NCBI RefSeq assembly: GCF_009729555.1
Contig: NZ_WODC01000001.1
Span: forward strand, 434,001 to 498,000
Direction of reading: 5' to 3'
Source of the DNA: Pseudodesulfovibrio alkaliphilus
GTDB lineage: Bacteria; Desulfobacterota; Desulfovibrionia; Desulfovibrionales; Desulfovibrionaceae
DNA length: 64,000 nucleotides
Of the stretch, positions 26,485-43,083 are shown in pieces; the first letter of the stretch is position 1, and every line of letters begins with the position of its first letter. The notes beneath the pieces are model-generated. The model saw only the letters and a program-made list of their open reading frames with translations, was not told the DNA's origin and made no database searches. The position numbers and the translations under genes are program-made.

Positions 26485-26501
26485 CACCAGGAGTGTGCCC
26501 G

Positions 26502-29500
26502 ATGAAATCCAGCTGGCTCTTTGAAGTATCGTGGGAAGTATGCAACAAGGTCGGCGGCATCCACACCGTCATCAGCAGCAAGGCCGCAGAGGCCGTGGCC
26601 GCCTTTGACGGCCACTATGTGGCCATCGGCCCCCTGCTCGACCGGAACCCGGGATTCGAGCCCTGCGATCCGCCCGAGGAGTTTCTGCCCGCCCTGGAAC
26701 GCCTTGCACAGCAGAATATTCCCGTCCAGGTCGGCCGCTGGGACATTCCGGGCAACCCATGGGCTCTGCTCGCCGGATTCCAGGGGGTCTTCCCGAGTCA
26801 CGACAAGCTCCTCTTCCAACTCTGGAGCGACTTCGGCGTGGACTCCATGACCGGCGGCTGGGACTATATCGAGCCGGTCATCTTCAGCACCGTCTCGGCC
26901 ATGATCATCAAGGAAATCAGCGACGAGCTGGGCGACGAAACCGATGTCTACGCCCACTTCCACGAGTGGATGTCCGGGGCCGGGGTGCTCCATCTCAAGA
27001 AGCAGGCCCCGGATGTGGCCACCCTGCTGACCACCCATGCCACCATGCTCGGCCGGGCCATGTCCGGCTCGGGCGTGGACATCTACGAACGTCTTGAGGA
27101 GATCGAGCCGTCCCAGGAGGCCAAGGCCATCGGGGTGCTGGCCAAGCACTCCATGGAATCCGTCAGCGCACGCGAGGCCGACTGCTTCACCACCGTTTCC
27201 GACATCACCCGGCGCGAGGCATCCAACCTGCTGGGCACCAACCCTGCCGTGACCACCTATAACGGATTCAACCTCGAAGGCTTCGCCAGACCCGCTGCCG
27301 TGGAAAAGGCGCGGCGCGGCGCCCGCGCCCAACTGGTGGACCTCGCCTCCCGCTTCCTGGAGCGCGATCTCAAGCCCGACAAAACCCTGCTGGTGGCCAC
27401 CAGCGGCCGCTACGAATTCCACAACAAGGGCATCGATCTGCTCATCGAAAGCCTGGCCAAGGTGGACGAGGAGCTGGCCGGAAGCGAGTCGGACATCACC
27501 GTGGTCGCCTTCCTGCTCGTCACCTGCGGCTATGCAGGCTTCAGCGAGGAGGCCCGCAGACGGCTCAAGGACGAGCACTACAGCATCGAAAAATACGGCG
27601 GCATCGCCACCCACCACCTGGGCGACACCGACCGCGACGCCATTGTGGTCAAATGCCGCGAGACCGGCCTGGACAACGCGCCGGAAAACCGCTGCTGCGT
27701 GATCTTCATCCCGGTCTACCTCGACGGCAACGACGGCATCCTCAACCTTGAGTACTACGACGCCCTTGCAGGCATGGACCTGACCGTGTTCCCCTCTTTC
27801 TACGAGCCGTGGGGCTACACGCCCATGGAAAGCGCGGCCTTTTTCGTGCCCACCATCACGGCCGACAGGGCCGGATTCGGCCAGTGGGTCATGGAGCGCC
27901 ACCCTGGCGGCCATCCCGGAGTCATGGTCCTCGATCGGCTCAAGGACAACTACCGCACCGCGGTGGGCAAACTGGCCAAGCTCCTGTCCGACTTCACCCG
28001 CTGGTCGTCCGAGGAGCGGGCGTTCCGGCGAGGCGAAGCCCGGCGCATCGCCGAGGAAGTCACCTGGAAAAACTTCTACCCGCACTATCTCGAAGCCTAC
28101 AAGATGGCGGGCGACATCCGCACCGAACGGGTGGCCGGCGTGCAGCGCATGGCCGTGGCCCCAGGCAGGCTCTTCAGTTTCACTGGCGTCAACACCACCC
28201 AACCCAGGCTCAAATCCTTCTCCGTGATCACCGACCTGCCGCCGAGCCTGGCCCGGCTGCGCGATCTGGCCGCCAATCTCTGGTGGGTCTGGCACCGCGA
28301 CGCCCAGGAGCTTTTCGAGACCATCGACAGCCAGCGATGGGCCCAGTGCGCCCACAACCCGGTCCAGTTTCTGGACACCATCGACCCCGAGCGCATCGCC
28401 GCCATCGCCAACGATGCTGCCTTCATGGCCCGCGTCGCCGAAATCCTCCGCCGCTTCGACGCCTACATGGCCGAGAGCGGCAAGGCGGACCACGGCGGCA
28501 TCACCTGGAACAATCCCATTTCCTACTTCTCCATGGAGTTCGGGCTGCACGAGTCCATACCCATCTACTCCGGCGGCCTCGGCCTGCTGGCCGGAGACCA
28601 CATCAAGGCGGCCAGCGACCTCAACCTGCCCTTCATCGGCGTTTCGCTGCTCTACAAGAACGGCTACTTCCACCAGCGCATCAACGGCAACGGCGACCAG
28701 GTGGTCGAATATCACGAGAACAACTTCGCCTCCATGCCCGTCAATCCGCTGCAACGCGGCGACTCGGACCGGATCATGGTCACAGTGGACCTGCCGGGCC
28801 GCACGGTCTTCGCCCAGATATGGGAGGTGCGCGTGGGCCGGGCCAAGCTCTATCTGCTCGACACCGATGTGCCCGAGAACTCGCGCACCGACCGCGATAT
28901 CGCGGCCAAGCTCTACGAACCCTCGTCCAAGGGACGCATCGAGCAGGAGATCGTGCTGGGCGTGGGCGGAGTGCGGATGTTCCAGACCCTGGAGATCGCC
29001 CCGTCCATCTACCACCTCAACGAGGGCCACTCGGCCTTCCTGCTCTTCGAGCGCGTGCGCCAGCTCATGCGCCTCGAGGGAGTTGATTTCTCCACGGCCA
29101 AGGAGATAGTGCGCGGCTCCACGGTCTTCACCATGCACACCCCGGTGCCCGCGGGCAACGAACGATTCGAACGCTCGCTGGTGGAGAACTATTTCCGGGG
29201 CTATGCGGCCGAGATGGACGTGCCCTGGGACGCCCTGTGGAATCTGGGGCACATGTACGCCGAGGAGGCCGACCACCTGAACATGACTGTGCTCGCCCTC
29301 CAGCTTTCCTACCTGCGAAACGGCGTCAGCAAGCTCCACGGCGAGGTCTCGCGGCGCATGTGGATGGACCTGTGGCGAGGCTTCCTGCTCGGCGAAGTGC
29401 CGGTGGGGCACATCACCAACGGGGTTCACATTACCACATGGCTTGACGAGAGGGTCCGCCGCGACATGGAGGAGAGTTGCAACATCTCGGTTCACAAGAC

Positions 29501-30743
29501 ACTCATGGACGACATTGACTGGAACGTCATCGACGCCATCGACGACCGCCGCCTGTGGGACACCCATGTCGCCCTCAAGCACCGGCTCTACGAGGAGATA
29601 CGCCGCTCCATCTCCAGCCAGTGGGCACGCGAGGGCGAGCCGCCCAACCGTCTGCACAGCTTCCTCGAAACCCTTGACCCCGGACACCTGACCCTGTGCT
29701 TCGCCCGGCGTTTCACGGCCTACAAGCGGCCCACGCTGCTCTTCCACAACCTGAACAAGATCAAGCAGATATTCAACGACCCCAGCCGCCCGGTCAATAT
29801 CATCTTCGCGGGCAAGGCGCACCCGGCAGACACCATCGGCGCAAGCTTCATCAACCTCATCTGCCGTCTGGCCAAGCAGGACGACTTCCTTGGCCGGGTC
29901 ATCTTCCTCGAAAGCTACGACATCAGGCTGGCCCGCCTGCTGGTTTCCGGCTCGGACGTGTGGCTCAACACCCCCACCCGGCTGATGGAAGCCAGCGGCA
30001 CCAGCGGCATGAAGGCCGCTCTCAACGGCGTGCCCAATTGCAGCATCCTCGACGGCTGGTGGGACGAGGCCTACAACGCCGCCAACGGCTGGGCCGTGGG
30101 CCAGGGACTGGTCTACGAAACCCAGGTCAACCAGGATATCGTGGACGCGGACAACCTCTACGCCGTGCTGGAAACCGAGGTGGTACCCGAGTTCTACGAC
30201 CGGGGCGACGACGGCGTGCCCCACGCCTGGATCAGGCGGATGAAGGAATCCATGAAAACCGCCCTGGCCCAGTACGGCACCCACCGCATGGTCCGCGACT
30301 ACATCAGCGGCATGTACCTGCCCGCCCTGGCCCTGGCTGCGCGACGCAACAAGAACGACCACGCCCTGGCCAAAGACGTTGGCGCGTGGCATCGGCGCAT
30401 TCCCGGCCGCTTCTCCACGGTCAACATCAAGGAGATCCGGGTGGAAGGTATTCACGGCGATGTCTTCATGCTCGGCAACACCCTGCGCATCACCGCCAAG
30501 GTGGACAAGGGCCAGCTGCTCCAGGAGGAGATGCTGGTGGAGATGTTGGTGGCAAACCCCTCCGAGGACGCAGTGATAGACTGCGTACCGCTCAAGCTCA
30601 AGCACACCGAAGGAAACACCCTGGTCTTCAAGGTGGAATACACACCCGCATCGTCGGGCACCTGCCGCTACGGGGTACGGGTCATCCCGGTGCATCCGGG
30701 ACTTGGCACCAAGTACGAAACCCGTCTGGTCCGGTGGAGCTGA
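26502..30743 (+). CDS. Fused glycogen synthase (GT3-like) and alpha-glucan phosphorylase (GT35)
   Basis: One 1413-residue open frame. The N-terminal part (about 1-560) resembles eukaryote-type glycogen synthase, starting LFEVSWEVCNKVGGIHTV and containing FYEPWGYTPMESAAF. From about 570 a DUF3417 segment (RLRDLAANLWWVWHR) introduces a Thermotoga-type alpha-glucan phosphorylase. Its pyridoxal-phosphate lysine is Lys1171 in EASGTSGMKAALNG. The chain therefore joins an enzyme that builds glucan to one that releases glucose-1-phosphate. There is no stop or frameshift between halves. CCAGGAG precedes the ATG at 26502. It is the last gene of the glycogen operon. Confidence 0.88.
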   Translation: MKSSWLFEVSWEVCNKVGGIHTVISSKAAEAVAAFDGHYVAIGPLLDRNPGFEPCDPPEEFLPALERLAQQNIPVQVGRWDIPGNPWALLAGFQGVFPSHDKLLFQLWSDFGVDSMTGGWDYIEPVIFSTVSAMIIKEISDELGDETDVYAHFHEWMSGAGVLHLKKQAPDVATLLTTHATMLGRAMSGSGVDIYERLEEIEPSQEAKAIGVLAKHSMESVSAREADCFTTVSDITRREASNLLGTNPAVTTYNGFNLEGFARPAAVEKARRGARAQLVDLASRFLERDLKPDKTLLVATSGRYEFHNKGIDLLIESLAKVDEELAGSESDITVVAFLLVTCGYAGFSEEARRRLKDEHYSIEKYGGIATHHLGDTDRDAIVVKCRETGLDNAPENRCCVIFIPVYLDGNDGILNLEYYDALAGMDLTVFPSFYEPWGYTPMESAAFFVPTITADRAGFGQWVMERHPGGHPGVMVLDRLKDNYRTAVGKLAKLLSDFTRWSSEERAFRRGEARRIAEEVTWKNFYPHYLEAYKMAGDIRTERVAGVQRMAVAPGRLFSFTGVNTTQPRLKSFSVITDLPPSLARLRDLAANLWWVWHRDAQELFETIDSQRWAQCAHNPVQFLDTIDPERIAAIANDAAFMARVAEILRRFDAYMAESGKADHGGITWNNPISYFSMEFGLHESIPIYSGGLGLLAGDHIKAASDLNLPFIGVSLLYKNGYFHQRINGNGDQVVEYHENNFASMPVNPLQRGDSDRIMVTVDLPGRTVFAQIWEVRVGRAKLYLLDTDVPENSRTDRDIAAKLYEPSSKGRIEQEIVLGVGGVRMFQTLEIAPSIYHLNEGHSAFLLFERVRQLMRLEGVDFSTAKEIVRGSTVFTMHTPVPAGNERFERSLVENYFRGYAAEMDVPWDALWNLGHMYAEEADHLNMTVLALQLSYLRNGVSKLHGEVSRRMWMDLWRGFLLGEVPVGHITNGVHITTWLDERVRRDMEESCNISVHKTLMDDIDWNVIDAIDDRRLWDTHVALKHRLYEEIRRSISSQWAREGEPPNRLHSFLETLDPGHLTLCFARRFTAYKRPTLLFHNLNKIKQIFNDPSRPVNIIFAGKAHPADTIGASFINLICRLAKQDDFLGRVIFLESYDIRLARLLVSGSDVWLNTPTRLMEASGTSGMKAALNGVPNCSILDGWWDEAYNAANGWAVGQGLVYETQVNQDIVDADNLYAVLETEVVPEFYDRGDDGVPHAWIRRMKESMKTALAQYGTHRMVRDYISGMYLPALALAARRNKNDHALAKDVGAWHRRIPGRFSTVNIKEIRVEGIHGDVFMLGNTLRITAKVDKGQLLQEEMLVEMLVANPSEDAVIDCVPLKLKHTEGNTLVFKVEYTPASSGTCRYGVRVIPVHPGLGTKYETRLVRWS

Positions 30744-30891: not shown

Positions 30892-32304
30892 ATGCGCAAG
30901 TACATGATCGCCACACCGGACACCGCGGCCCATGACGCTCTGGAGGCGATCCTCGCACCCGACGGCGAGGGTGAGACCTTCCGGGACATGGCCGCCCTGC
31001 GCTCGGCCCTGGCCGCCCGTCCGGTCGATGTGCTCTTCGTGGACTACGGTCTGCTGACCGAGGGCAGCGCTTCGCACCGAGACGGCATCAGCGCGGTCTG
31101 GCAGGGCCACCAGGACGTGGAGATCGTCATCCTCGTCCATCAGGAGGAAATCCGCCGCGCCGTGGACGCGGTCAAGGAAGGCGCCTCGGACTACCTGACC
31201 TATCCGGTCAACCCGGCCGAGGTGCAGATGGTTCTCGAGCGGCTGGACAAGACCCTCATCCTGACCAGCGAGCTGGACTACCTCAGGGATCAGTTCTGGA
31301 ACGAGGAGGCCCTGCGCGTGGTCAGGACCAACAGCCCGGCCATGCGCGAAGCCTTTGCCAAGGTCCGCCAGATGGCCGGGACCAGGACCACGGTGCTGCT
31401 CACAGGCGAGACAGGCACGGGCAAAAGCCTCATCGCCAAGCTCATCCACTCCCACAGCGTTCGGCGCGACGCCCCTTTTGTCAGCGTCCACTGCGGGGCC
31501 ATCCCGGACACCCTCATCGAAAGCGAGCTTTTCGGCCACGAAAAGGGCGCCTTCACTGGCGCGGCCAAGCGCAAGATCGGAAAATTCGGTCTGGCCGAGG
31601 GCGGCACCCTGTTCCTCGACGAGGTGGGGACCATCTCGCCCTCCATGCAGGTCAAGCTCTTAAGCGTTCTTCAGGACAAAACCATCCAACGCGTGGGCAG
31701 CGACCGGGACATCCCGGTGGACGTGCGGATCATCGCAGCCACCAACGACTCCCTGCGCGACATGTGCGAAAAGGGGTTCTTTCGCAAGGACCTCTACTAC
31801 CGGCTCAACGTCTTTCCCATCGAAATCCCGCCGCTTCGCGAGCGCAGGAGCGATATTTTCTCCTTTGCCGAGGTGTTCATCCAGCACTTCAACGGCCAGC
31901 TCGGAAAGAACATCAAGGGGCTGCACCCCAAGACACTGGACGCCTTCCAGCGCTACTCATGGCCCGGCAATGTGCGCGAGCTGGAAAACCTCATCGAGCG
32001 TGCCTGCATCCTGGAGCAAGGCGAACTGATCACCCCGTCGAGCATTCCGCAGGACCTCTTCGGCCACTGTCTCCAAAGCGCCGGGAGCCGCACCGACATC
32101 TCCATCCCCCTGGGCCGGGCGAGGCAGAATGTGGTGGACGCCTTTGAACGCGCCTATCTGACCGAGCTGCTTGAGTCCACCCACGGCAAAATCAAGAACG
32201 CCGCCCAATGGGCGGGCATCACCCCGCGCCAGCTCCATAAACTCATGGCCCGCCACGGGTTGCACCGCCGCGATTTCCGCTCCCCGACAAAAAAAGGGAA
32301 CTGA
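30892..32304 (+). CDS. Sigma-54-dependent activator 2 with atypical receiver
   Basis: A 470-residue paralogue of the activator at 15871, highly similar in the AAA+ domain and recognition helix (TPRQLHKLMARHGLHRR against TTRQLNKLMNRHGLTRR). GAFTGA is present near residue 219. The receiver-like domain again lacks the acidic pair (YMIATPDT), and the conserved Lys position is Tyr104 (LTYPV). Asp51 in LFVDYG may occupy the acceptor position. Normal phosphorelay control is therefore doubtful. It sits directly before the sigma-54 promoter at 32511 and the lysine-aminomutase cluster, which it probably activates. Confidence 0.88.
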   Translation: MRKYMIATPDTAAHDALEAILAPDGEGETFRDMAALRSALAARPVDVLFVDYGLLTEGSASHRDGISAVWQGHQDVEIVILVHQEEIRRAVDAVKEGASDYLTYPVNPAEVQMVLERLDKTLILTSELDYLRDQFWNEEALRVVRTNSPAMREAFAKVRQMAGTRTTVLLTGETGTGKSLIAKLIHSHSVRRDAPFVSVHCGAIPDTLIESELFGHEKGAFTGAAKRKIGKFGLAEGGTLFLDEVGTISPSMQVKLLSVLQDKTIQRVGSDRDIPVDVRIIAATNDSLRDMCEKGFFRKDLYYRLNVFPIEIPPLRERRSDIFSFAEVFIQHFNGQLGKNIKGLHPKTLDAFQRYSWPGNVRELENLIERACILEQGELITPSSIPQDLFGHCLQSAGSRTDISIPLGRARQNVVDAFERAYLTELLESTHGKIKNAAQWAGITPRQLHKLMARHGLHRRDFRSPTKKGN

Positions 32305-32436: not shown

Positions 32437-32456
32437 GGGAACTCGCAGTTCCCTTT
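32437..32456. promoter_or_regulatory. Upstream activator site, cluster 2
   Basis: GGGAACTCGCAGTTCCC (32437-32453) is a seven-base dyad with a three-base centre, followed by TTT. It is nearly identical to the site at 17423 and lies 57-58 bases before its sigma-54 promoter, as in cluster 1. Confidence 0.72.
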
Positions 32457-32510: not shown

Positions 32511-32526
32511 TGGCCCCAAATATGCT
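32511..32526 (+). promoter_or_regulatory. Sigma-54 (-24/-12) promoter, cluster 2
   Basis: TGGCCCCAAATATGCT keeps GG and GC at the required separation. Transcription should start near 32537, about 25 bases before the ATG at 32563, the same geometry as in cluster 1. The flanking sequence is AT-rich (TATTATTTCAAGATTAT). Confidence 0.75.
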
Positions 32527-32562
32527 TTGCCCTGCCGATCGTGATGGACTCAAGGAGCAGAC

Positions 32563-32877
32563 ATGGGAGACCGCACACGCACATCTGCGCCAGGACATGA
32601 GATCGCCGTGGGCGTTCTCATTCCGCACGGCTGGGACGACAACTTCAGCGTCACCAGTGTTTCCCTGGCATGCGAGGGCGAGCGGGAAATCGTCATCGGC
32701 AATCTTGAGAGCCATCCGGGACTGCTCGTGCTGCTGCGCAGACGGGTCAGACTCACCGGGACCGTTGCCCGCGACGGGGAGGGGGAGACCATGACCGTGG
32801 AAGGATACAAACCCGTCGCCGACAGCGACGCAAACGGCCCGGAAACCAGAGGGACGACGAATGGAAAGATTCTGTAA
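32563..32877 (+). CDS. Small OB-like protein, first gene of cluster 2
   Basis: A 104-residue paralogue of the protein at 17546, with the same strand pattern (GVLIP, LACEGEREIVIGNL, PGLLVLL, VRLTGTVARD, TVEGYKP). No signal peptide. A strong ribosome site (AAGGAG) precedes the ATG. Its last 17 bases overlap the next gene, so the two are translationally linked. The function is unknown. A nucleic-acid- or ligand-binding OB barrel is a guess from the strand pattern only. Confidence 0.76.
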   Translation: MGDRTRTSAPGHEIAVGVLIPHGWDDNFSVTSVSLACEGEREIVIGNLESHPGLLVLLRRRVRLTGTVARDGEGETMTVEGYKPVADSDANGPETRGTTNGKIL

Positions 32878-33214
32878 GCTTCTTGCCCCCCTGCTCCTGG
32901 CCCTGGTTCTTGCCGCGGGACCAAGCGCGGCCCGGGGCGAAGCGGAGATGATGGAAATTGAGGCGGACATCACGGTGGAGGGCATCGTGGTCGTCATGGA
33001 TGACGGCGTGTTTCTCGATGACGGTGTCAGGCTCTTCCTGCTCATCGACATGGAGGATGTCCGCCTGGAAGGGATGCTCGTGGAAGTGTTCGGCCAGTAT
33101 CTGCTGGTAGACGAGATGCCCGCCATCAAGGTTCAGGAAATGACCGTCCTCGACGAGGGGGCAGCCTCTCCCGGCAACCGCCGCCCAAAGCCAGAGAACG
33201 ACCGCAACGGCTGA
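32861..33214 (+). CDS. Small exported OB-like protein (BOF-like)
   Basis: A 117-residue protein with a signal peptide (residues 1-25, hydrophobic LLAPLLLALVLAAG, AAR-G type end), so probably periplasmic. The mature part shows ITVEGIVVVMDDG, FLDDGVRLFLLIDM, VRLEGMLVEVFGQYLLV and AIKVQEMTVL. This strand order resembles the bacterial OB-fold (BOF) group of small exported proteins. It overlaps the preceding gene and lies 35 bases before the aminomutase gene. It might sense or bind the product of the pathway; that is speculation. Confidence 0.68.
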   Translation: MERFCKLLAPLLLALVLAAGPSAARGEAEMMEIEADITVEGIVVVMDDGVFLDDGVRLFLLIDMEDVRLEGMLVEVFGQYLLVDEMPAIKVQEMTVLDEGAASPGNRRPKPENDRNG

Positions 33215-33249
33215 CCAAGCCATACCATTTCACCCAAGAGGACATGACA

Positions 33250-34491
33250 ATGATCGAAATCGAAGCCTGCACCGAACAGGAGCCTCCCCTTCCCAAGGAC
33301 ATCCCTTGCGCCGATGGCACCTCCGCCTTCGGCGGTCTCTATCCCTCCCTGCGGGCTTTCCGCGAACACGTTTTTCCGGGCGTGACCGAGTCGCGATGGA
33401 ACGACTGGCGCTGGCAAATAGCCAACCGCGTTCTGGACGTGGACACTGTCGAAAAAGTGCTCGGATATTCCAGGGCCGGTTCCATGCCCCTTGGCAAGGG
33501 GCTGCCCATGGCCGTGACACCCTACTATCTCGGCGTGGCGGCTGTGGCGGGCTCCACCGCCCTGCGCCGATGCATCGAGCCGACCATCCACGAATTCGTC
33601 ATGGACCCAAGCGAGGCCGAAGACCCCCTTGGCGAGGAGGGGCACACCGCCGTGCCCGGCATCGTCCACCGCTACCCGGACAGGGTTCTCTTCCTGGTCA
33701 CCGACTATTGCTCCACTTACTGCCGCTACTGCACCCGCTCGCGGTTGGTGGGCAAAGGCGGACGCAGGCACGATACGCGCAAGTGGAAACGCGGCATCGA
33801 ATACATCCGGGCCAACCCTGCCGTGCGCGACGTACTCCTCTCGGGCGGCGACCCCCTGACCATGCCCGACGACAGGCTCGACTGGCTGCTGACCGAACTG
33901 CGCACCATCCCCCATGTGGAGATCATCCGCATCGGGTCAAAGGTGCCTGCCGTGCTGCCCCAGCGCATCACGCCGGAGCTGACGGCCATGCTTCGCAAGC
34001 ACCACCCGCTCTTCATCAGTCTGCACTTCGCCCACCCCGACGAGCTGACGGCCCAGACCGTTCGCGCCTGCGCCATGCTGGCCGATGCGGGCATCCCCCT
34101 GGGCAGCCAGACCGTGTTGCTCAAGGGCGTCAACGACGAGGTGGAGACCATGAAGCGGCTCATGCACGGCCTGCTCAAGGCCCGTGTGCGCCCCTACTAC
34201 CTGTATCAGTGCGACCCCATCCCCGGTTCGGCCCACTTCAGGACTCGCGTGGAAAAGGGGCTTGAAATCATCCAGGGCCTGCGCGGCCACACCTCGGGCT
34301 ACGCGGTGCCAAGCTACGTCATCGACGCACCGGGCGGCGGCGGCAAGATTCCCCTGCTGCCCGAATATTACGTGGGCCGCGACAAGGGCAACGTGCTGCT
34401 GCGCAACTACGAGGGCAGGCTCTTCACCTATCCCGACCCCGAGCCGTCGGCCGTCATCACTGGCGCCGCGCTCACGGAGAACGCGCAATGA
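33250..34491 (+). CDS. kamA: Lysine 2,3-aminomutase (radical SAM, PLP)
   Basis: A 413-residue enzyme that converts L-lysine to beta-lysine. The iron-sulfur ligands are Cys154, Cys158 and Cys161 (CSTYCRYC). Known catalytic residues of the clostridial enzyme all appear at a constant offset of 29: Arg163 (substrate carboxylate), Asp322 and Asp359 (lysine side-chain amine) and Lys366 in GGGGK (pyridoxal phosphate). This favours lysine over glutamate and full-length KAM over EpmB. The ATG at 33250 has AGAGGA seven bases upstream; 33244 is an alternative. Its stop overlaps the next gene (ATGA), so beta-lysine is the likely substrate for the ligases that follow. Confidence 0.92.
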   Translation: MIEIEACTEQEPPLPKDIPCADGTSAFGGLYPSLRAFREHVFPGVTESRWNDWRWQIANRVLDVDTVEKVLGYSRAGSMPLGKGLPMAVTPYYLGVAAVAGSTALRRCIEPTIHEFVMDPSEAEDPLGEEGHTAVPGIVHRYPDRVLFLVTDYCSTYCRYCTRSRLVGKGGRRHDTRKWKRGIEYIRANPAVRDVLLSGGDPLTMPDDRLDWLLTELRTIPHVEIIRIGSKVPAVLPQRITPELTAMLRKHHPLFISLHFAHPDELTAQTVRACAMLADAGIPLGSQTVLLKGVNDEVETMKRLMHGLLKARVRPYYLYQCDPIPGSAHFRTRVEKGLEIIQGLRGHTSGYAVPSYVIDAPGGGGKIPLLPEYYVGRDKGNVLLRNYEGRLFTYPDPEPSAVITGAALTENAQ

Positions 34492-35525
34492 ACATCGGCA
34501 TGACCTACGACCTCAAGGACGACTACCTCAGGCAGGGATTGTCGTGCGAGCAGGCCGCCGAATTCGACTCCGAAGTGACCATCGCGGGCATTCAGGGAGC
34601 GCTCGAGGACCTCGGCCACACCGTGGACCGCATCGGCAACGTCACCGCCCTGGTCTCGCGGCTGGCCGCAGGCCACCGCTGGGACCTGGTCTTCAACATC
34701 GCCGAAGGGCTGCACGGGCTGGGACGCGAGGCCCAGGTTCCGGCCCTGCTCGACGCATGGTCCATCCCCTACACCTTTTCCGGCCCAGAACTGATGGCCC
34801 TGACCCTGCACAAGGGCAGGACCAACGCCGTGGCCCGCTCCCTTGGCGTACCCACGGCCGACTACGCAGTCGTCGCCCGGCCCGCTGACCTGGACGCGGT
34901 GTCCCTTCCCTTCCCCCTGTTCGCCAAACCCGTGGCCGAGGGCACCAGCAAGGGCATCAGCGACCGCTCGCTGGTCCGCGACGCCGCCGCCCTGCGCGAG
35001 GTCTGCACCGACCTGCTGACAACCTTCCGCCAGCCTGTGCTGGTGGAAACGTATCTGCCCGGCCGCGAGTTCACCGTGGGCCTTCTGGGCAGCGGCGACC
35101 ACAGCCGTGTGGCCGGCGTCATTGAGGTCAGGGCCGTGGGCCAGGGCGACGCCTCGGCCTACACCTATGAAAACAAGCAGGACTGGACCCGGCGCGTGGC
35201 CTACGAGTTGGTGGACGACGAGGCGGCCATGGGCGCGGCCCGGCTCGCCCTGCACGCCTGGCGCGTCCTGGGATGCCTGGATGCGGGCCGCATCGATGTG
35301 CGCCTGGACAGCGACGACGCGCCCCGGTTCATTGAGGTCAACCCCCTGCCGGGCCTCAACCCCGAAAGCTCGGACCTGCCCATCCTCTGGCGCCTTGGCG
35401 GCCGCACCTACGACGCCCTGATCCGGGAAATACTTCTCTCCGCCCTGGATCGCGTCAGGAGAGCGGAAAACGCCGGGGAGGCCCCCGGAATGGCTGCCGG
35501 AGTTGCAGCCGGAGTAGCAGCATGA
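34488..35525 (+). CDS. D-Ala-D-Ala-ligase-like ATP-grasp enzyme 1
   Basis: A 345-residue ATP-grasp protein of the D-alanine-D-alanine ligase superfamily. Segments include DLVFNIAEGLHG, the substrate-loop region SGPELMALTLHK, LVETYLPGREFTVGLLG and the metal-binding RFIEVNPLPGLNPESSDLP. It should form an amide bond through an acyl-phosphate. True Ddl is unlikely because a second such gene follows immediately and lysine 2,3-aminomutase precedes. The C-terminal tail is low-complexity (AAGVAAGVAA) and overlaps the next start (ATGA). The acceptor and donor substrates are unknown; beta-lysine is the obvious candidate. Confidence 0.84.
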   Translation: MNIGMTYDLKDDYLRQGLSCEQAAEFDSEVTIAGIQGALEDLGHTVDRIGNVTALVSRLAAGHRWDLVFNIAEGLHGLGREAQVPALLDAWSIPYTFSGPELMALTLHKGRTNAVARSLGVPTADYAVVARPADLDAVSLPFPLFAKPVAEGTSKGISDRSLVRDAAALREVCTDLLTTFRQPVLVETYLPGREFTVGLLGSGDHSRVAGVIEVRAVGQGDASAYTYENKQDWTRRVAYELVDDEAAMGAARLALHAWRVLGCLDAGRIDVRLDSDDAPRFIEVNPLPGLNPESSDLPILWRLGGRTYDALIREILLSALDRVRRAENAGEAPGMAAGVAAGVAA

Positions 35526-36535
35526 AACGTACAGCGGCAGTGGTCAGAAACCGGGTTCCCCGAGGCGCAGCCGGAGACGTGGCCGATGTCATCGCCCAGA
35601 GCCGGTTCGTCAGCCGCATGTTGCGCGAACTTGGCTGGAGCGTGGTCGAGGTGGAGCTTGGCTCCGACCTGGGCGAGGCCGTGAACACCCTCCAGGGCAT
35701 CCGCCCGGCCGTGGTCTTCAACTTGGTGGAAAGCATCATGGATTCCGACGAGCTGGCCAACCTCACCCCGATCATCTTCCGCAAACTCGGCCTGCCCTTT
35801 ACCGGGGCCGACAGCTCGGTGCTCTTCCTGACCAACGACAAACTTGCCGCCAAGCGGCACATGCTCTCCGTTGGCCTGCCCACCCCGGCCGGGGTGGACG
35901 AGACCGGGCTGAAGCGGGGCCGCTTCCCCGGACCCGGCCGCTACATCGTCAAGAGCCGTTGCGAGCACGCCTCCATCGGCCTGGACGATTCCTCGGTCAT
36001 GGACATAACCGGCGCGGACCAGTTGCTGGCCGCCATGGCCGCCCGACGCCACCGCCAAGGCGGGGCCTGCATGGCCGAGCGGTTCATCAACGGCCGCGAG
36101 TTCAGCGTCTCCCTGCTTGAGACAGCGGACCACACGGCCGAAATCCTCGGCTCGGCCGAAATCGTGTTTCGCCACGACATGCCGGTCAAGATCGTGGGCT
36201 ACGACGCCAAGTGGCAGGAAGGGTCCGAGGCGGACCTGTCCACGGTGCGCGGCTTCGCCTTCCGCAGGGCCGAGCCAGGGCTGACGGCCCGATTGGAACG
36301 CACCGCCCGAGACTGCTGGGACGAGATGGGACTCAGCGGGTACGCCCGTGTGGATTTCCGGGCCGATGCCCAGGGGGATCTTTTCATCATTGATGTCAAC
36401 GCCAATCCCTGTCTGGCGGAAAACGCCGGATTCATGGCCACGGCCAGGGAGGCTGGGAGAAAACCTTCCGATGTCATCGCCGCCATCGTGGACGGTGCGC
36501 TGCGAAGACACATCGGCGAAAAGAAGGCGGCCTGA
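35522..36535 (+). CDS. D-Ala-D-Ala-ligase-like ATP-grasp enzyme 2
   Basis: A 337-residue ATP-grasp protein, clearly different from the first. The N-terminal half has VVFNLVESIMDSDE and LPFTGADSSVLFLTNDK, and the catalytic half has AERFINGREFSVSLLE and LFIIDVNANPCLAE. The last segment supplies the magnesium-binding Asp/Asn pair. Two consecutive ligases suggest either a dipeptide/tripeptide built in two steps or a heteromeric enzyme. It starts at an ATGA overlap and is followed by the GNAT gene after one base. Confidence 0.84.
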   Translation: MKRTAAVVRNRVPRGAAGDVADVIAQSRFVSRMLRELGWSVVEVELGSDLGEAVNTLQGIRPAVVFNLVESIMDSDELANLTPIIFRKLGLPFTGADSSVLFLTNDKLAAKRHMLSVGLPTPAGVDETGLKRGRFPGPGRYIVKSRCEHASIGLDDSSVMDITGADQLLAAMAARRHRQGGACMAERFINGREFSVSLLETADHTAEILGSAEIVFRHDMPVKIVGYDAKWQEGSEADLSTVRGFAFRRAEPGLTARLERTARDCWDEMGLSGYARVDFRADAQGDLFIIDVNANPCLAENAGFMATAREAGRKPSDVIAAIVDGALRRHIGEKKAA

Positions 36536-36536
36536 C

Positions 36537-37055
36537 ATGAGCGAGACGCAGCTTTTGACCCTGGACATCGTCTACGACGACCAGCTTGCCGTGGAAGACG
36601 TGCGGGCTTTGTGCGCCCTGACCGCCGAGACCCGGTTTTTTTCCGAGGAGGAAGTGCTCATCGTCGAGGAGCTGGCCTGGGCGGCCATCACCGGAGGCGA
36701 GGAAAGCGGCTACCACTTCCTGCTCGCCCGGCCAGAGGCCGACACGCCGGTCTCGGCCGCTGGCTTTGCCTGCTTTGGCCCGGTGCCGTGCACCAAGGGG
36801 AGCTGGGATCTCTACTGGATCGTGGTCGATCAGGCCATGCAGGGGCGCGGCCTGGGCAGACGCATCCTGCGCGAGTGCGAGCGGCGGATGCTGGCCATGG
36901 GTGTGCGCAAGGTGTTCGTCGAGACCTCCTCGCGGGAGCAGTACGCGCCCACCCGGAGTTTTTACGAGTCCTGCGGCTACAGGCTGGAATCGCGGATGAT
37001 GGATTACTACGACCGGGGTGAGGACTGTCTTGTCTACACCCGGAGCCTCGACTGA
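36537..37055 (+). CDS. GNAT-family N-acetyltransferase, cluster 2
   Basis: A 172-residue acetyltransferase with the acetyl-CoA loop QGRGLG at residues 102-107 after the strand DLYWIVVDQ, and FYESCGY near the C terminus. It is paralogous to the GNAT at 17898. Its start lies one base after the ligase stop, so it is part of the same transcript. Acetylating an amino group of beta-lysine or of the ligated product fits the context; methanogen AblB does this for free beta-lysine, but this protein is shorter than AblB and need not be equivalent. Confidence 0.83.
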   Translation: MSETQLLTLDIVYDDQLAVEDVRALCALTAETRFFSEEEVLIVEELAWAAITGGEESGYHFLLARPEADTPVSAAGFACFGPVPCTKGSWDLYWIVVDQAMQGRGLGRRILRECERRMLAMGVRKVFVETSSREQYAPTRSFYESCGYRLESRMMDYYDRGEDCLVYTRSLD

Positions 37056-37138
37056 CCGGATACGGCCAACTTCAGAAAATGACATGGTCCGGGCTGGCAA
37101 AGGACAGGTACCGGGCCGCGAGGGCCAAGGACTGACGC

Positions 37139-38899
37139 ATGTTCAGGATTCGTCCGGTGTACGACACCCGGCTGCCAGTGGATCAGACAGCCATGACCAA
37201 GGCGCAGGCCATCCTGCGCGAGCGCTTCCCCCTGCTCGATCCCGCCGAAATTGACCTGCTTCCCGAGCTGCTGGCCAACCCGTTCCTCAAGCAATACCGC
37301 TCCATCCTCTTCGTGGCCGAAAACGGCAAGGGCGAGGTGCGCGGCTTTGCCCTGCTCTGCCATTTTCCAGACCTCGACTTCTGCTATCTCGACTTCGTCT
37401 CGGTCAGCCTGCGCCACGGCGGGGGCGGCATCGGCTCTGCCCTGTACGAGCGAATCCGCGAAGAGGCGCTGGCCCTTGGGGACACGGCCCTGTTCTTCGA
37501 GTGTCTGCCCGATGACCCGGCTCTATGCTCCAACCCCAAGATCCTCAAGGAAAACAAGGCCCGCCTCGCCTTCTACGAGCGCTACGGTGCCCGGCCCATC
37601 ACCGGCACGGCCTACGAGACCCCGCTGATCCCGGGGGGCGAGTGTCCGCCCTATCTTGTGGTCGATCCGCTGGGCAGAAAGCTCAAGCTCACCCGCGCCA
37701 GAATCCGGGCCATTGTCCGGGCCATCCTGACCCGCAAGTATCGCGATGTCTGCCCGGCAGAATACACGGACAGGGTGGTGGCCTCTTTCGCCACCGGAGA
37801 TCTCGCCCTGCGGCCGCCCCGATACGGGGCGCGAAACGACTCCGCGCCCGCCCCGGCCCCATGTGCGGTCATGAGCCGCGACAGGCGCATCGCCCTGGTG
37901 GCCAACGACGTTCACGACATCCACCATGTCCGCGAGCGCGGCTATGTGGAAGCCCCGGTACGCATCGCCAAAATTCGCAAGGAACTGGATCGGTGCGGCC
38001 TTTTTGACGAACTTGCCGTACGCCATTTTCCCGAGGCGGTCATCACCGCGGTCCACGACAAGGGGTATGTGGACTATTTCCGCCGGGTCTGCGCCAGCCT
38101 GCCCGAGAACAAATCCGTGTATCCTTACGTCTTTCCCATCCGCAATGCGACCAGGCCGCCACGCGAGCTGCCCGTGCGCGCCGGCTATTACTGCATGGAC
38201 ACCTTCACCCCCCTCAACGCCAACGCCTGGAAGGCGGCCAAACGGGCCGTGGACTGCGGGCTGACCGCGGCCCAGGCCATGACCTCCGGCCGCAGACTCG
38301 CCTACGCCCTGGTGCGCCCGCCCGGCCACCATGCCGAGGGACGCGCCTTTGGCGGGTTCTGCTATTTCAACACCGCGGCCGTGGCCGCCCACTGGCTCTC
38401 CCGGCTGGGCAGCGTGGCCGTGCTCGACATCGACTACCACCACGGCAACGGCACCCAGAACATTTTCTATGAACGCGACGATGTGCTGACCCTGTCCATC
38501 CACGGCCACCCCCGCTTCGCCTATCCCTACTTCAGCGGATTTGCCGAGGAAACGGGCAAGGGCCGGGGACTGGGGTACAACCGCAACTTCCCGTTGCTGG
38601 AGCGGGTGGACGGCGAGAAGCATCGCAACACCCTGGTCCGCGCCCTGGCCCTTGTGCGCGACTTCGCCCCCACCTTCCTGGTGGTCTCCCTGGGCCTGGA
38701 CACGGCCAAGGGCGACCCCACCGGCACCTGGAGCTTAAACGCCCGTGACTTCGCAGCTTCGGGCCAGCTCATCGGACGCCTGGGACTGCGCACCCTGGTC
38801 ATCCAGGAAGGCGGCTATCTGATACGCTCCCTGGGGGTTAACGCCCGCAGCTTCTTCCAGGGATTGCACCAGGGCGCAACCAGAGCCTCCCGGCGGTAG
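37139..38899 (+). CDS. GNAT and histone-deacetylase-family fusion protein
   Basis: A 586-residue bifunctional protein. Residues 1-180 look like a GNAT acetyltransferase (VSLRHGGGGIGSALY, AFYERYGARPI). Residues about 240-586 form an HDAC/acetylpolyamine-amidohydrolase domain: tandem His397-His398 in RPPGHHAEG, zinc ligands Asp432 and His434 in DIDYHHGNGT and Asp521 in LDTAKGDPTG, and the catalytic tyrosine Tyr560 in EGGY. All active-site residues are kept, so deacetylation of a small acetyl-lysine-like or polyamine-like molecule is credible. AAGGA precedes the ATG at 37139. It is the last gene of cluster 2, 83 bases after the GNAT gene. Confidence 0.9.
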   Translation: MFRIRPVYDTRLPVDQTAMTKAQAILRERFPLLDPAEIDLLPELLANPFLKQYRSILFVAENGKGEVRGFALLCHFPDLDFCYLDFVSVSLRHGGGGIGSALYERIREEALALGDTALFFECLPDDPALCSNPKILKENKARLAFYERYGARPITGTAYETPLIPGGECPPYLVVDPLGRKLKLTRARIRAIVRAILTRKYRDVCPAEYTDRVVASFATGDLALRPPRYGARNDSAPAPAPCAVMSRDRRIALVANDVHDIHHVRERGYVEAPVRIAKIRKELDRCGLFDELAVRHFPEAVITAVHDKGYVDYFRRVCASLPENKSVYPYVFPIRNATRPPRELPVRAGYYCMDTFTPLNANAWKAAKRAVDCGLTAAQAMTSGRRLAYALVRPPGHHAEGRAFGGFCYFNTAAVAAHWLSRLGSVAVLDIDYHHGNGTQNIFYERDDVLTLSIHGHPRFAYPYFSGFAEETGKGRGLGYNRNFPLLERVDGEKHRNTLVRALALVRDFAPTFLVVSLGLDTAKGDPTGTWSLNARDFAASGQLIGRLGLRTLVIQEGGYLIRSLGVNARSFFQGLHQGATRASRR

Positions 38900-39918: not shown

Positions 39919-42900
39919 TTACTCGCGAACGGCCTCCACAGTCATGCCCGGCTTGAGCATGTAGGGCCTGCCGAAGATCTCCACGGGCAACACGCGGTCG
40001 CCCTTGTGATAGGCGGTAATGTTCACCCGGTCGCGGGCGATGTGCAGATCGAACCACACCTTGCGCCAGACGAAACTCAGGTGCACCTCGCCCCAATGGT
40101 CGGGCAGATCCGGGGCCACCTTCATGGGCGTGGCCGAGAGGTTAAGCCCGATGAAGTCCTGTTTGACCACTTCCAGGGTTCCGGCCATGACTCCTGTATG
40201 GATGCCTTCGATGGTGGTGCCGCCCTGGGTGTCTTCGATGTCGCTGTGCATGGCCTCCATGAACCAGTCCCAGGAGACCTCGCTCGGGTAGATGTAGCGG
40301 GAGATGACTGCATGCACCACCTTGGACAGGGTTGAGCCGTGGCTGGTGCGCTGCTCGTAGTAGTCGTAGTTGTCGCGCAGCAGCTTGACGGGATCGTCCA
40401 CCCGGTGGCCGAGCTGGTTCAGAATCCGCGCCACCTCGTCGGGCTCCAGCACATACCAGGTCATGAGCGTGTCCGCCTGCTTGGCCACCTTGTAGTTGTC
40501 GGGCGAGTCATTCTCGGCCTTGAGAATGCGGTCCATGCGGTGGATGGAATAGAACCGTTTGCGATACGCCTCCCAATCCAGCTCCTTGAGATCCATGTAG
40601 CCGTCGAACTGGCTGATGATGCCGTCGCCGGTCATGATCACGTTGAGCTTGGTGGTCATGTCGCGCCACTTGGCCACGTCGCCCCCGGTCAGGCCGATGC
40701 GTTCTTCCAGCCCCTCGCGCACCTTGGCGGGCAGCTCGTCGAGGATCTCCAGAGACTTCTCCAGCAGCCAGACCACCATGATGTTGGTGTAGGCGTTGTC
40801 CTTGAGCCCCGGCTCGGTGCTGCCCGGCAGCTTCTCGTGGAACTCGTCCGGCCCCATGACGCCCTCGATGTGGTATCTGCCGGTCTCCTCGTCGAAGCGG
40901 GCTATGGAGCCCCAGAAGCGGGCGATGTCGAGCATCAGCTCGGCCCCGAAGGCCCGAAGGAACGCCTTGTCCCCGCTCCAGGACACATAACGCCAGGCAT
41001 TGACGAACACGGCGATGGACACATGCCGCTGGCGGCGGGAAAGGTCCGGGTCCCACTTCTTGGATTCCGGGTTGTAGTGGACCTCCTGGGTCTCTTCGGT
41101 GCCGTCGTCTGCGGTCTGCCACGGGTACATGGCCCCCAGGCAGCCGTTTTCACGGGCATAGGCCCTGGCCGCGTCGAGGCGGTTGTAGCGGTACATGAGC
41201 AACGACTTGGAGATGTCGGGGAAGTTGGAGTCAAAGAAGGGCTGGATGTACATCTCGTCCCAGAAGATGTGTCCCCTGTAAGCCTCGCCGTGCAGTCCCC
41301 GGGCGGGCATTCCCGCGTCGCGGTTGACATTGTGGGGGCTGGCCGTGACCAGCAGGTGGTAGATGTGCAGGCGCAGCACCCGCTGCACGAAACGGTCGCC
41401 CGTGACCCGGATGTCCGCCTTCTGCCACAGGGCCTTCCAGCTCCTGGCGTGGGGTCCGTGCACCCCGGCGAAGGTACGCGCCCCGCGCAGCCCGTCCAGG
41501 CACATTTCCTTGAGATCGCCCGGTTCCTGGTCCAGCGAGGTGCGTACATAAACGAACTTTTCCAACGTGTACCGGGTGTTTTCCGTGGCCGAGACGCATA
41601 GTTCCTCAGACACCTTGGCCTCGTCCTGGACCACCTCGCGCTGAACGCGCAGGGGTTTGCCGTCTTCATACACCGAGCACTTGGCGGCCATGACGATCTG
41701 ATAACGCGACTGCGAGGTCTCCACATGGAGAAAGATGCCCTCTCCAGCCGGGCCACCGCCCACCCGGCGCAGGTGGCGGGTATTGAGCGAGGCGTAGCGG
41801 GCCACGCCCTTGTTCTCCACATTGCCGTCGATGGACGAACGCAGGGTGATGCGCGAGGAGTAGTTGAGCGGGGTCAGGTCGAAGCTCAGGGCGCAGAGGT
41901 GACAATTGGCCATGGACGCCAGCCGACGCGAGGCGATGCGCGTGAGTCGGCCCACCTGGTCCTTGACCACCATGTCGCGGGAAAGCACCCCGGAGCGCAT
42001 GTTCAGCCGGTGGGAGTAGCTGAGGATCTCCATGGACAGCGGGCTGACGAACTCGCCCTGACCGATGCGAAACTCCACGGGCAGCCAGTTGGGGCAGTTG
42101 ACCATGTCGTTGTTCCACACGTCGCGCCCCTGCACCTGGCTGACGGTCTTGTTGAACACGCCCGAGATGTAGGTGCCGGGATAAAAGTAGTACGAGGCGC
42201 ACTCGCACTCATAGGCCCCGCGTGTGCCGAGATAGCCGTTGCCCACGGCGGTCAGGGTTTCACGCAATTTCTCGTCGCCGGGATCAAAGCCGTTGTATGT
42301 CAGCAGCCACTCGTCGCTGGCCATGCCTGTCTCGAACCAGTCGAAGAGGTCATCCACCGTGATTTCGCCGAGGTCGGAAACGACCTTGTCCGCACCAAAG
42401 CGCAGCAGCAGCTCTCCCGGAGTGTTGCGGGCCACGCCCAGCGTCATGCCGAAATTGCCAGCTCGCCCGGCCTGAACGCCGGAGATGGCGTCCTCCACCA
42501 CCGCGCACTCTCCCGGATTGCATTGAAGCTCTCTGGCCGCGGCAACGAATATGTCCGGGTCGGGCTTGCCCTTGAGCCCGCGCTCGGCCGAAACCACGCC
42601 ATCGATATGCGCCTCGAAAACGTCGTCAAGCCCGGCCAGTTGAAGAACGAGCATGCAGTTGCGGCTGGAGGTGGCCACGGCCACGCGCACCCCCCGCGCC
42701 TTGAGCTCGTCGATGAGCCGCACCGAGGAGGCGAAGACCTCCGGGCCTTCATCGCGCAGAATATTCTGATACAGCTCGTTCTTGCGATTACCCACGGCGC
42801 AGATGGAATCCAGCCCGGCCGGGTCCTCGGGATCTCCGGCGGGCAGCCGGATGCCGCGTGACTTGAGAAAACTCAGCACACCCTCGAAGCGTGGCTTGCC

Positions 42901-43083
42901 GTCCACATAGTTCTGGTAGTCCCGGGTCCGGTCAAAGGGTTCGAAGGGGATGTTCTTCTCCTCCGAGTGGCGTTTGAGAAATTCGTTGAACGCGGTTTCC
43001 CATGCCTGAGCATGAACGCTCGCCGTCCTGGTGATCACGCCGTCGAGGTCGAACACGACGCCTTTGAGGGGAATTGCAGCCAC
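39919..43083 (-). CDS. HAD (beta-phosphoglucomutase-like) and GH65 disaccharide phosphorylase fusion
   Basis: A 1054-residue protein. The first 245 residues are a HAD domain of the beta-phosphoglucomutase group (VFDLDGVIT with Asp12 and Asp14, TSSRN, KPDPDIF, EDAISGVQAG). The rest is a GH65 enzyme (AVGNGYLGTRGAYE, the catalytic Glu in GVMGPDEFHE, TLSKVVHA near the end). GH65 enzymes phosphorolyse or hydrolyse trehalose, kojibiose or maltose; with inverting phosphorolysis the product would be beta-glucose-1-phosphate, which the HAD part could isomerise to glucose-6-phosphate. The exact disaccharide is not determined by sequence. Confidence 0.88.
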   Translation of the reverse strand: MAAIPLKGVVFDLDGVITRTASVHAQAWETAFNEFLKRHSEEKNIPFEPFDRTRDYQNYVDGKPRFEGVLSFLKSRGIRLPAGDPEDPAGLDSICAVGNRKNELYQNILRDEGPEVFASSVRLIDELKARGVRVAVATSSRNCMLVLQLAGLDDVFEAHIDGVVSAERGLKGKPDPDIFVAAARELQCNPGECAVVEDAISGVQAGRAGNFGMTLGVARNTPGELLLRFGADKVVSDLGEITVDDLFDWFETGMASDEWLLTYNGFDPGDEKLRETLTAVGNGYLGTRGAYECECASYYFYPGTYISGVFNKTVSQVQGRDVWNNDMVNCPNWLPVEFRIGQGEFVSPLSMEILSYSHRLNMRSGVLSRDMVVKDQVGRLTRIASRRLASMANCHLCALSFDLTPLNYSSRITLRSSIDGNVENKGVARYASLNTRHLRRVGGGPAGEGIFLHVETSQSRYQIVMAAKCSVYEDGKPLRVQREVVQDEAKVSEELCVSATENTRYTLEKFVYVRTSLDQEPGDLKEMCLDGLRGARTFAGVHGPHARSWKALWQKADIRVTGDRFVQRVLRLHIYHLLVTASPHNVNRDAGMPARGLHGEAYRGHIFWDEMYIQPFFDSNFPDISKSLLMYRYNRLDAARAYARENGCLGAMYPWQTADDGTEETQEVHYNPESKKWDPDLSRRQRHVSIAVFVNAWRYVSWSGDKAFLRAFGAELMLDIARFWGSIARFDEETGRYHIEGVMGPDEFHEKLPGSTEPGLKDNAYTNIMVVWLLEKSLEILDELPAKVREGLEERIGLTGGDVAKWRDMTTKLNVIMTGDGIISQFDGYMDLKELDWEAYRKRFYSIHRMDRILKAENDSPDNYKVAKQADTLMTWYVLEPDEVARILNQLGHRVDDPVKLLRDNYDYYEQRTSHGSTLSKVVHAVISRYIYPSEVSWDWFMEAMHSDIEDTQGGTTIEGIHTGVMAGTLEVVKQDFIGLNLSATPMKVAPDLPDHWGEVHLSFVWRKVWFDLHIARDRVNITAYHKGDRVLPVEIFGRPYMLKPGMTVEAVRE

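Follow-up and report, generated by a model that had tools for sequence, protein, structure and literature searches.

What does an operon make that sets a lysine 2,3-aminomutase-like enzyme beside two ligases resembling D-Ala-D-Ala ligase (Ddl), an acetyltransferase, and a protein in which an acetyltransferase is joined to a histone-deacetylase-type domain? The question is raised by a locus of Pseudodesulfovibrio alkaliphilus, which we analysed within a stretch of 64,000 nucleotides (contig NZ_WODC01000001.1, positions 434,001 to 498,000), hereafter the window, whose numbering is used throughout. The original prediction was of a sigma-54-controlled cluster yielding an acetylated beta-lysine product.

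Organization of the locus

The seven co-oriented genes with overlaps or short gaps on which that prediction was built are all present on the + strand, in the order ORF1, ORF2, aminomutase (KAM), ligase 1 (AG1), ligase 2 (AG2), GNAT and GNAT-HDAC (GHDAC). ORF1 overlaps ORF2, KAM overlaps AG1 by 4 nt and AG1 overlaps AG2 by 4 nt, while an 83-nt gap separates GNAT from GHDAC. The features are (domain names from Pfam):

30895..32304, + strand: sigma-54-dependent activator, receiver-like domain at the N-terminus (Sigma54_activat 2.2e-69, AAA_lid_14, HTH_8)
32437..32453, no strand: palindrome GGGAACTCGCAGTTCCC, candidate upstream activator site, half-sites in 4/4 aligned upstream regions
32511..32526, + strand: predicted -24/-12 (sigma-54) promoter TGGCCCC-N5-TGCT, TGGCCCCAAATATGCT, kept in four aligned upstream regions
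32563..32877, + strand: ORF1, small protein of predicted OB-like fold, without Pfam or NCBIfam family
32861..33214, + strand: ORF2, small protein, signal peptide likely from its sequence
33244..34491, + strand: KAM, lysine 2,3-aminomutase-like radical SAM enzyme (Radical_SAM, LAM_C)
34488..35525, + strand: AG1, ATP-grasp ligase 1 (Dala_Dala_lig_C 8.6e-27)
35522..36535, + strand: AG2, ATP-grasp ligase 2 (Dala_Dala_lig_C 3.5e-16)
36537..37055, + strand: GNAT acetyltransferase (Acetyltransf_1 8.5e-12)
37139..38899, + strand: GHDAC, GNAT-HDAC bifunctional protein (Acetyltransf_1, Hist_deacetyl)

ORF1 has relatives beyond the window: related ORFs number 19, spread over 16 of the compared sequences with the window counted in (L033 and L050 represent a single locus). 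The core blocks of its AlphaFold2 model reach pLDDT 91-95, and its Foldseek matches are for the most part OB folds, if weak ones (best E 0.0077). ORF2 found no family match in Pfam and NCBIfam scans, and among the sequences compared its homologues are confined to this genus.

The aminomutase

KAM matches the clostridial lysine 2,3-aminomutase 2a5h at 1.5e-127, with the active site aligned free of gaps. The constant offset of 29 between the active-site residues of the two enzymes is borne out when counting starts from the ATG at 33250; counted from the ATG at 33244 it is 31, and R165, D324, D361 and K368 then correspond to R134, D293, D330 and K337. In the C. subterminale enzyme we take the latter to be the lysine-binding R, D and D and the PLP-lysine, the two Asp presumably holding the lysine epsilon-amine. 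The pocket R, D, D and the PLP-site K are present in all 113 aminomutases aligned, comprising the window KAM, 103 other cluster KAMs and nine AblA.

The AblA equivalog model TIGR03820 is the top NCBIfam match for the window KAM and for 8/8 other cluster KAMs scanned. The window KAM matches it over full length with 468.8 bits, below the cut-off of 525.4, and the eight others score 427-505 bits over matched stretches rather than whole genes; the genome's own AblA reaches 757 bits and that of locus L039 722 bits. The Cys of the VNDC motif, which we take to be the AblA zinc-site cysteine, occurs in 9/9 AblA and in one of 104 cluster KAMs, and is replaced by Glu in the window KAM. In a quick, midpoint-rooted tree with long branches, 11 of the 104 cluster aminomutases group on the AblA side. 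Since a separate ablA-ablB pair lies elsewhere in the same genome, its AblB scoring above the TIGR03827 cut-off, the cluster would represent a second, different beta-lysine route.

The ligases and the acetyl-handling proteins

In line with the D-Ala-D-Ala-ligase-like genes of the original prediction, AG1 and AG2 both carry the Ddl-type C-terminal domain. The AlphaFold2 model of AG1 (mean pLDDT 89.9) has the Ddl fold (Foldseek 9.2e-24), AG2 matches the AG1 profile with a probability of 99.8%, and several ATP-grasp positions are conserved in the cluster ligases. Both score far under the cut-off of the D-Ala-D-Ala ligase model TIGR01205 (109.7 and 66.2 bits for AG1 and AG2, cut-off 245.65), and a true Ddl above it is encoded elsewhere in the genome. 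In an alignment with that Ddl, the D-Ala-site Ser column holds Thr in 4/4 AG1 rows and Ala in 4/4 AG2 rows. The Tyr column holds Trp in 4/4 AG2 rows; the AG1 rows read Trp, Trp, Cys and Tyr, in a column that is unsure because a two-residue gap adjoins it. We take the Ser and Tyr to be S150 and Y216 of E. coli DdlB.

Among the 11 NCBIfam matches of GNAT up to E 0.01, AblB (TIGR03827) is absent. The Pfam domains of GNAT and GHDAC agree with the predicted acetyltransferase followed by a GNAT-HDAC fusion, and the zinc site said to be complete is so, all residues of the HDAC active site (His-His, Asp-x-His, Asp, Tyr) being there as H397, H398, D432, H434, D526 and Y560. The same site is complete in 33 of 34 matches above 200 bits, window included, the other one being uncovered at the Tyr. 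The HDAC domain, whose best match spans residues 295-576, has acetylpolyamine amidohydrolases as its closest solved sequences; unlike these enzymes, GHDAC carries an N-terminal GNAT and, in five loci, a second GNAT at the C-terminus.

Conservation of the gene set

The check proposed with the original prediction, whether the gene set co-occurs and keeps its order across genomes, came out strongly in its favour. We kept 80 public loci of 558 relatives, with AG1 as the sole selection criterion. KAM lies directly upstream of AG1 in 75 of them; 74 contain AG2, 66 GNAT and 12 GHDAC. These loci span many phyla, mostly of uncultured bacteria, and include sulfate reducers, syntrophs and Bacteroidales, although the records are mostly MAGs by title, so that assignments may be wrong. 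Unrelated genomes share both the gene content and its order, which makes a chance arrangement very unlikely.

In a phylum sample of 217 genomes (AG1 counted at E <= 1e-40, identity down to 33%), a KAM-family gene was found in 77/77 genomes with AG1 and in 55/140 others. In at least 52 of the 77, no more than 3.5 kb separates KAM from AG1; for the remaining 25, no KAM is within 3.5 kb among the matches listed, and in eight of these it lies about 5 kb off. GHDAC follows AG1 even where the two are apart: AG1 was present in 20 of 21 GHDAC genomes of the phylum sample (Fisher 2.5e-9), in 10 of 11 in which the two are unlinked (6e-5), and in 18 of 18 in a family sample (n=59; 2e-12), these tests ignoring kinship and the two samples sharing the positives G000 and G029. 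In one GHDAC genome (G124), AG1 is a remnant matching residues 1-67 only. A role of GHDAC as a general partner of ablAB is ruled out by its co-occurrence with AblB in just 2/21 genomes of the phylum sample. Nor is it a stray cluster neighbour, as it lies apart from the cluster in 10 of 18 family genomes and AG1 is found elsewhere in 10/10 of these. At L039, GHDAC is divergent from an operon of the ABC-ablA-ablB-like type.

Fusions, counted where two genes share a frame with no intervening stop codon, join AG2 to GNAT in three loci (L139, L140, L143) and GHDAC to the second GNAT in the five loci mentioned above, giving GNAT-HDAC-GNAT; L149 and L140 also read as entire proteins. Fusions of KAM with AG1 and of AG1 with AG2, hinted at by long ORFs, were rejected when L132 and L135 were read residue by residue and the first part proved to be out of frame. 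From these gene comparisons, fusions and co-occurrence together tie AG2, the acetyltransferase and the deacetylase to one another.

Outside the core, every neighbour family is limited to 21 or fewer of 98 sequences, and thus there is no constant transporter or channel among the recognised neighbours. In Syntrophaceae and their kin, lineage-bound genes lie beside the cluster.

Predicted control by sigma-54

The sigma-54 control claimed for the cluster is upheld as a prediction by a conserved -24/-12 site and an adjacent enhancer-binding protein. The activator gene, whose translation contains GAFTGA, lies directly upstream of the cluster and neighbours it in several relatives also; its receiver match is of 20.3 bits only, against a cut-off of 30.2. 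By sequence alone the promoter site is unremarkable, since the pattern has 10 matches in the window for 3.3 expected, and its score was reached by 15/300 shuffles. However, in an alignment of the window with three relatives, both the site and the palindrome are conserved in 4/4 while the rest of the upstream stretch diverges. A run of T past the palindrome is not conserved in the four, whereas the half-sites are, which favours a candidate binding site over a terminator. Outside the genus the picture is mixed, with strong promoters at L049 and L146, unconvincing ones at L038 and L047, and none found by the search at L043. A simple pattern scan found a similar site upstream of ORF1 at L157 and no site at L158 and L159; such misses carry little weight because the known site of L160 (the L117 locus) was also missed.

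Proposed pathway and alternatives

We propose, with a probability of roughly 0.6, that the cluster encodes a pathway to a small amide or peptide which contains beta-lysine and carries an N-acetyl group removable by GHDAC, and that in the window the pathway is switched by sigma-54. KAM, judging from its invariant residues, would convert L-lysine to beta-lysine. AG1 and then AG2, as diverged Ddl-fold ligases, would make two amide bonds by way of a carboxylate activated as acyl phosphate, with beta-lysine as a partner in one or both. GNAT would acetylate a remaining amine, probably the epsilon-amine, and GHDAC, coupled to the pathway by co-occurrence and fusion, would take the acetyl group off again, so that the pool is interconverted or recycled; the direction is our reading. 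In the window, the adjacent activator would switch the operon. Co-occurrence, gene order, pocket residues and fusions lend partial support to the acetylated beta-lysine product originally predicted. Weighing against the proposal are the ablA-ablB pair that the genome already has, the lack of a constant transporter or channel among the recognised neighbours, the 25 genomes with no listed KAM close to AG1, the 11 cluster aminomutases on the AblA side of the tree, and the AG1 remnant of G124.

PMC1224877 describes the abl operon as salt-dependent in Methanosarcina mazei and required at high salt in Methanococcus maripaludis, and N-acetylglutaminylglutamine amide (NAGGN) as a known solute. Like the abl pathway (AblA plus AblB, making the osmolyte N-epsilon-acetyl-beta-lysine), with which it coexists in this genome, the cluster combines a lysine aminomutase and a GNAT in a single operon, but it adds two ATP-grasp ligases and co-occurs with GHDAC, its KAM falls under the AblA cut-off and is without the zinc-site cysteine, and its GNAT is without an AblB match. 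NAGGN, an acetylated neutral dipeptide solute, is likewise made by an ATP-grasp enzyme with a GNAT, and its synthesis uses an asparagine-synthetase-like amidotransferase with a GNAT/ATP-grasp protein. In contrast, the cluster has Ddl-type ligases and starts from an aminomutase, and no amidotransferase domain of the NAGGN type was found by Pfam among the eight proteins scanned. Among the matches listed in a search of open-access titles and abstract openings, no description of the gene set was found; a related prediction may be contained in the survey that Iyer and colleagues devoted to ATP-grasp amidoligases (Mol. BioSyst., 2009).

The product could instead be a secreted secondary metabolite containing beta-lysine, such as an antibiotic or a metal-binding or signalling peptide, assembled by free-standing ligases. 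Beta-lysine and ATP-grasp ligases are both known from antibiotics, and the patchy presence of the cluster, strong KAM matches (>= 661 bits) being found in 7/25 genus genomes, would suit such a role. However, the core order is constant over many phyla, neither an exporter nor a resistance gene nor a tailoring enzyme appears among the recognised constant neighbours, and a paired deacetylase would better suit an internal pool, which makes a secreted product unlikely. Its chemistry overlaps with that of the pathway preferred here, the role being what differs.

Alternatively, the target of the ligases and the acetyltransferase could be the cell wall or a protein rather than a free metabolite. The ligases are Ddl-like, EpmB is among the KamA relatives, and EpmB with EpmA beta-lysylates EF-P. 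Yet KAM is under the cut-off of the EpmB model TIGR03821 (227.7 bits versus 369.3), no EpmA-like, Mur-like or carrier-protein domain was found in the eight proteins scanned, and the genome has its separate Ddl, so that we regard this as rather improbable. Somewhat less credit still is given to an aminomutase acting on glutamate or arginine, which would place another beta-amino acid in the product: KAM does fall under the AblA cut-off and matches the glutamate and arginine models, but these too only below their cut-offs (412 and 344 bits), AblA remains its best NCBIfam model, and both pocket Asp are kept without exception. That KAM and GNAT, a pair known from PMC1224877, make N-epsilon-acetyl-beta-lysine while the ligases serve something else is highly improbable, given ligases that mostly sit between the two genes, the three AG2-GNAT fusions, the lack of an AblB match and the ablAB elsewhere in the genome.

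Significance

A role of the product of the proposed acetylated beta-lysyl pathway as a solute is plausible. Isolate names among the 80 loci hint at marine sources but also at fen, bog, lake and rumen, and a purely high-salt role fits the latter four badly. At a little short of even odds, the pathway would be a widespread one, yet to be described as such, and would define a new metabolite class, that of N-acetylated beta-lysyl di- or tripeptides made by free-standing ATP-grasp ligases, with a charge toggled by a dedicated GNAT/deacetylase pair, serving as general solutes or protectants in many phyla. The analysis predicts a beta-amino-acid metabolite, together with its enzymes, across many bacterial lineages, points to a likely function beyond cell-wall synthesis for two Ddl-fold ligases, and suggests what a bacterial HDAC might naturally do, namely make the acetylation of a small molecule reversible.

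Organization and distribution of the gene set

By gene reading and domain search, a sigma-54 activator in the window is followed by ORF1, ORF2, the lysine 2,3-aminomutase-like gene KAM, the ATP-grasp ligase genes AG1 and AG2, GNAT, and the GNAT-HDAC gene GHDAC, all on the + strand, with junctions in the seven-gene run ranging from overlap up to an 83-nt gap. Directly 5′ of the activator lies a 1420-aa frame with glycogen synthase-like and glycogen phosphorylase-like domains (26481-30743, + strand), and 3′ of the cluster a GH65 phosphorylase-type enzyme is fused to a HAD phosphatase domain (39919-43083, - strand). Two elements are conserved across the four upstream regions that were aligned (that of the window and those of three relatives), in a stretch that has otherwise diverged:

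32437-32453, palindrome
32511, -24/-12 site

Because the site of the window was unexceptional on score alone in a pattern scan with shuffles, the sigma-54 claim rests on this conservation and on the adjoining activator. The window belongs to Pseudodesulfovibrio, and AG1 of P. pelocollis (L050) is 90% identical to its own. Beyond the genus the promoter evidence is mixed, with a perfect site at locus L049 (0/300 shuffles) and a good one at L146 (2/300), none convincing at L038 and L047 (77/300 and 100/300), and none found on scanning L043. ORF1 gave no match in family searches; its relatives amount to 19 ORFs in 16 of the sequences compared, window included, and its predicted fold is OB-like, with weak PDB matches. 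Relatives of ORF2 were not found outside this genus among the sequences compared.

A scan by AG1 alignment, keeping 80 of 558 relatives, yielded loci chosen by AG1, some of which end at contig edges. Of these 80 loci, 76 have KAM, and in 75 it immediately precedes AG1 on the same strand; 74 have AG2, 66 GNAT and 12 GHDAC. According to record titles, mostly of MAGs, carriers comprise sulfate reducers, Syntrophaceae, Smithella, Bacteroidales, Alphaproteobacteria, Acidobacteria, Planctomycetaceae, KSB1, Krumholzibacteriia, Aminicenantes, WOR-3, Lentisphaeria and one Clostridiaceae. AG1 occurred in 77 of 217 genomes sampled across the phylum, and a KAM-family gene accompanied it in 77/77, whereas 55/140 of the others had one. 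For 52 or more of these 77 genomes the two genes lay within 3.5 kb, and for 8 of the other 25 about 5 kb apart; in the two of these 8 that were inspected (L138 and L145, family f5) the order on one strand is AG2, KAM, sigma-54 activator, AG1, with AG1 about 5 kb from KAM. Three loci (L144, L147, L148) have AG1 and AG2 without adjoining KAM, a KAM match being found elsewhere in the same genomes. Within the genus, strong KAM matches (661 bits or more) occurred in 7 of 25 genomes.

At Syntrophaceae-type loci (L067, L073, L076 and kin), a DUF47 gene follows 3′ of GNAT in 16 cases and a PiT-like transporter, identified by reading, in 15; a DAP/Orn/Arg-type decarboxylase is also frequent there, with a total of 11 loci. 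The DUF47 and decarboxylase assignments were checked against Pfam on L067 only. These neighbours are lineage-bound.

Co-occurrence and fusions show that GHDAC belongs to the gene set. A full GHDAC was found in 18 of 59 family genomes, all of them among the 21 with AG1, and lay away from the cluster in 10 of the 18. Of 21 GHDAC genomes in the phylum sample, which shares two genomes (G000, the window's own, and G029) with the family sample, 20 have AG1 and only 2 have AblB. The exception, G124, has KAM, a fused AG2-GNAT and, between them, only an AG1 remnant matching residues 1-67 (L140, 1512-4823). Same-frame fusions join GHDAC to GNAT at L082, L112, L121, L134 and L149, of which L112 and L121 are both from Desulfatitalea; at L139, L140 and L143 a same-frame fusion links AG2 with GNAT. 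The closest solved relatives of the HDAC domain are acetylpolyamine amidohydrolases, and all active-site residues are present. In a single case (L039 4060-11799, genome G028), GHDAC is divergent from genes for a solute-binding protein, an ABC ATPase (so identified by reading), AblA and, at the position of ablB, a GNAT.

The aminomutase and the ligases

The KAM of the window is alignable with clostridial lysine 2,3-aminomutase, and the lysine- and PLP-binding residues are kept in all 113 aminomutases compared (104 cluster KAMs including the window's, and 9 AblA). Despite this conservation, it is not AblA: it scores 468.8 bits, below the AblA cut-off of 525.4, whereas the genome's own AblA reaches 757. 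All eight other cluster KAMs scanned gave 427-505 bits as matched stretches. All 9 AblA carry the zinc-site cysteine of the VNDC motif, as does 1 of the 104 cluster KAMs. In a quick tree, to which long-branch warnings apply, 93 cluster KAMs including the window's form one side of a branch (support 97) and the 9 AblA a single group (support 100). The AblA side also includes 11 cluster KAMs of other lineages, and therefore an aminomutase may have been recruited into the set more than once.

Domain search placed a D-Ala-D-Ala ligase (Ddl) C-terminal domain in both AG1 and AG2, with scores far under the Ddl cut-offs; the genome's own Ddl (L150) is above its family cut-off. The predicted structure of AG1 (mean pLDDT 89.9) has Ddl as its best structural matches. 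On alignment with L150, the substrate-site Ser is replaced by Thr in 4/4 AG1 rows and by Ala in 4/4 AG2 rows, and the substrate-site Tyr by Trp in AG2, the AG1 column being unsure. Four N-terminal acids of AG1 (D8, E25, D27, E73) are invariant in 39/39 rows and could hold an amine.

Proposed pathway and role

Gene content, order, co-occurrence, fusions and residues are the observed basis of a proposed pathway in which KAM would most likely convert lysine to beta-lysine, AG1 and AG2 would form two amide bonds, GNAT would N-acetylate the product and GHDAC would reverse that acetylation; the substrates, the ligation order, the amine acetylated and the role are inferred. N-epsilon-acetyl-beta-lysine is a known solute (PMC1224877), and a solute role for the cluster product would parallel it. 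Against such a role, isolate names suggest fen, bog, lake and rumen origins, no neighbour beyond the core is constant (each occurs in at most 21 of 98 sequences), and the window genome already has ablAB, both genes above their family cut-offs (L002, G000:C9). This ablA-ablB pair adjoins genes reading as an ABC transporter.

No description of the gene set was found in the open-access literature searched, judged by titles and the beginnings of abstracts; a 2009 amidoligase survey may include an earlier prediction of a related kind. The catalytic parts all come from known families, and it is their combination and product that, as far as the open-access literature could be searched, are new.
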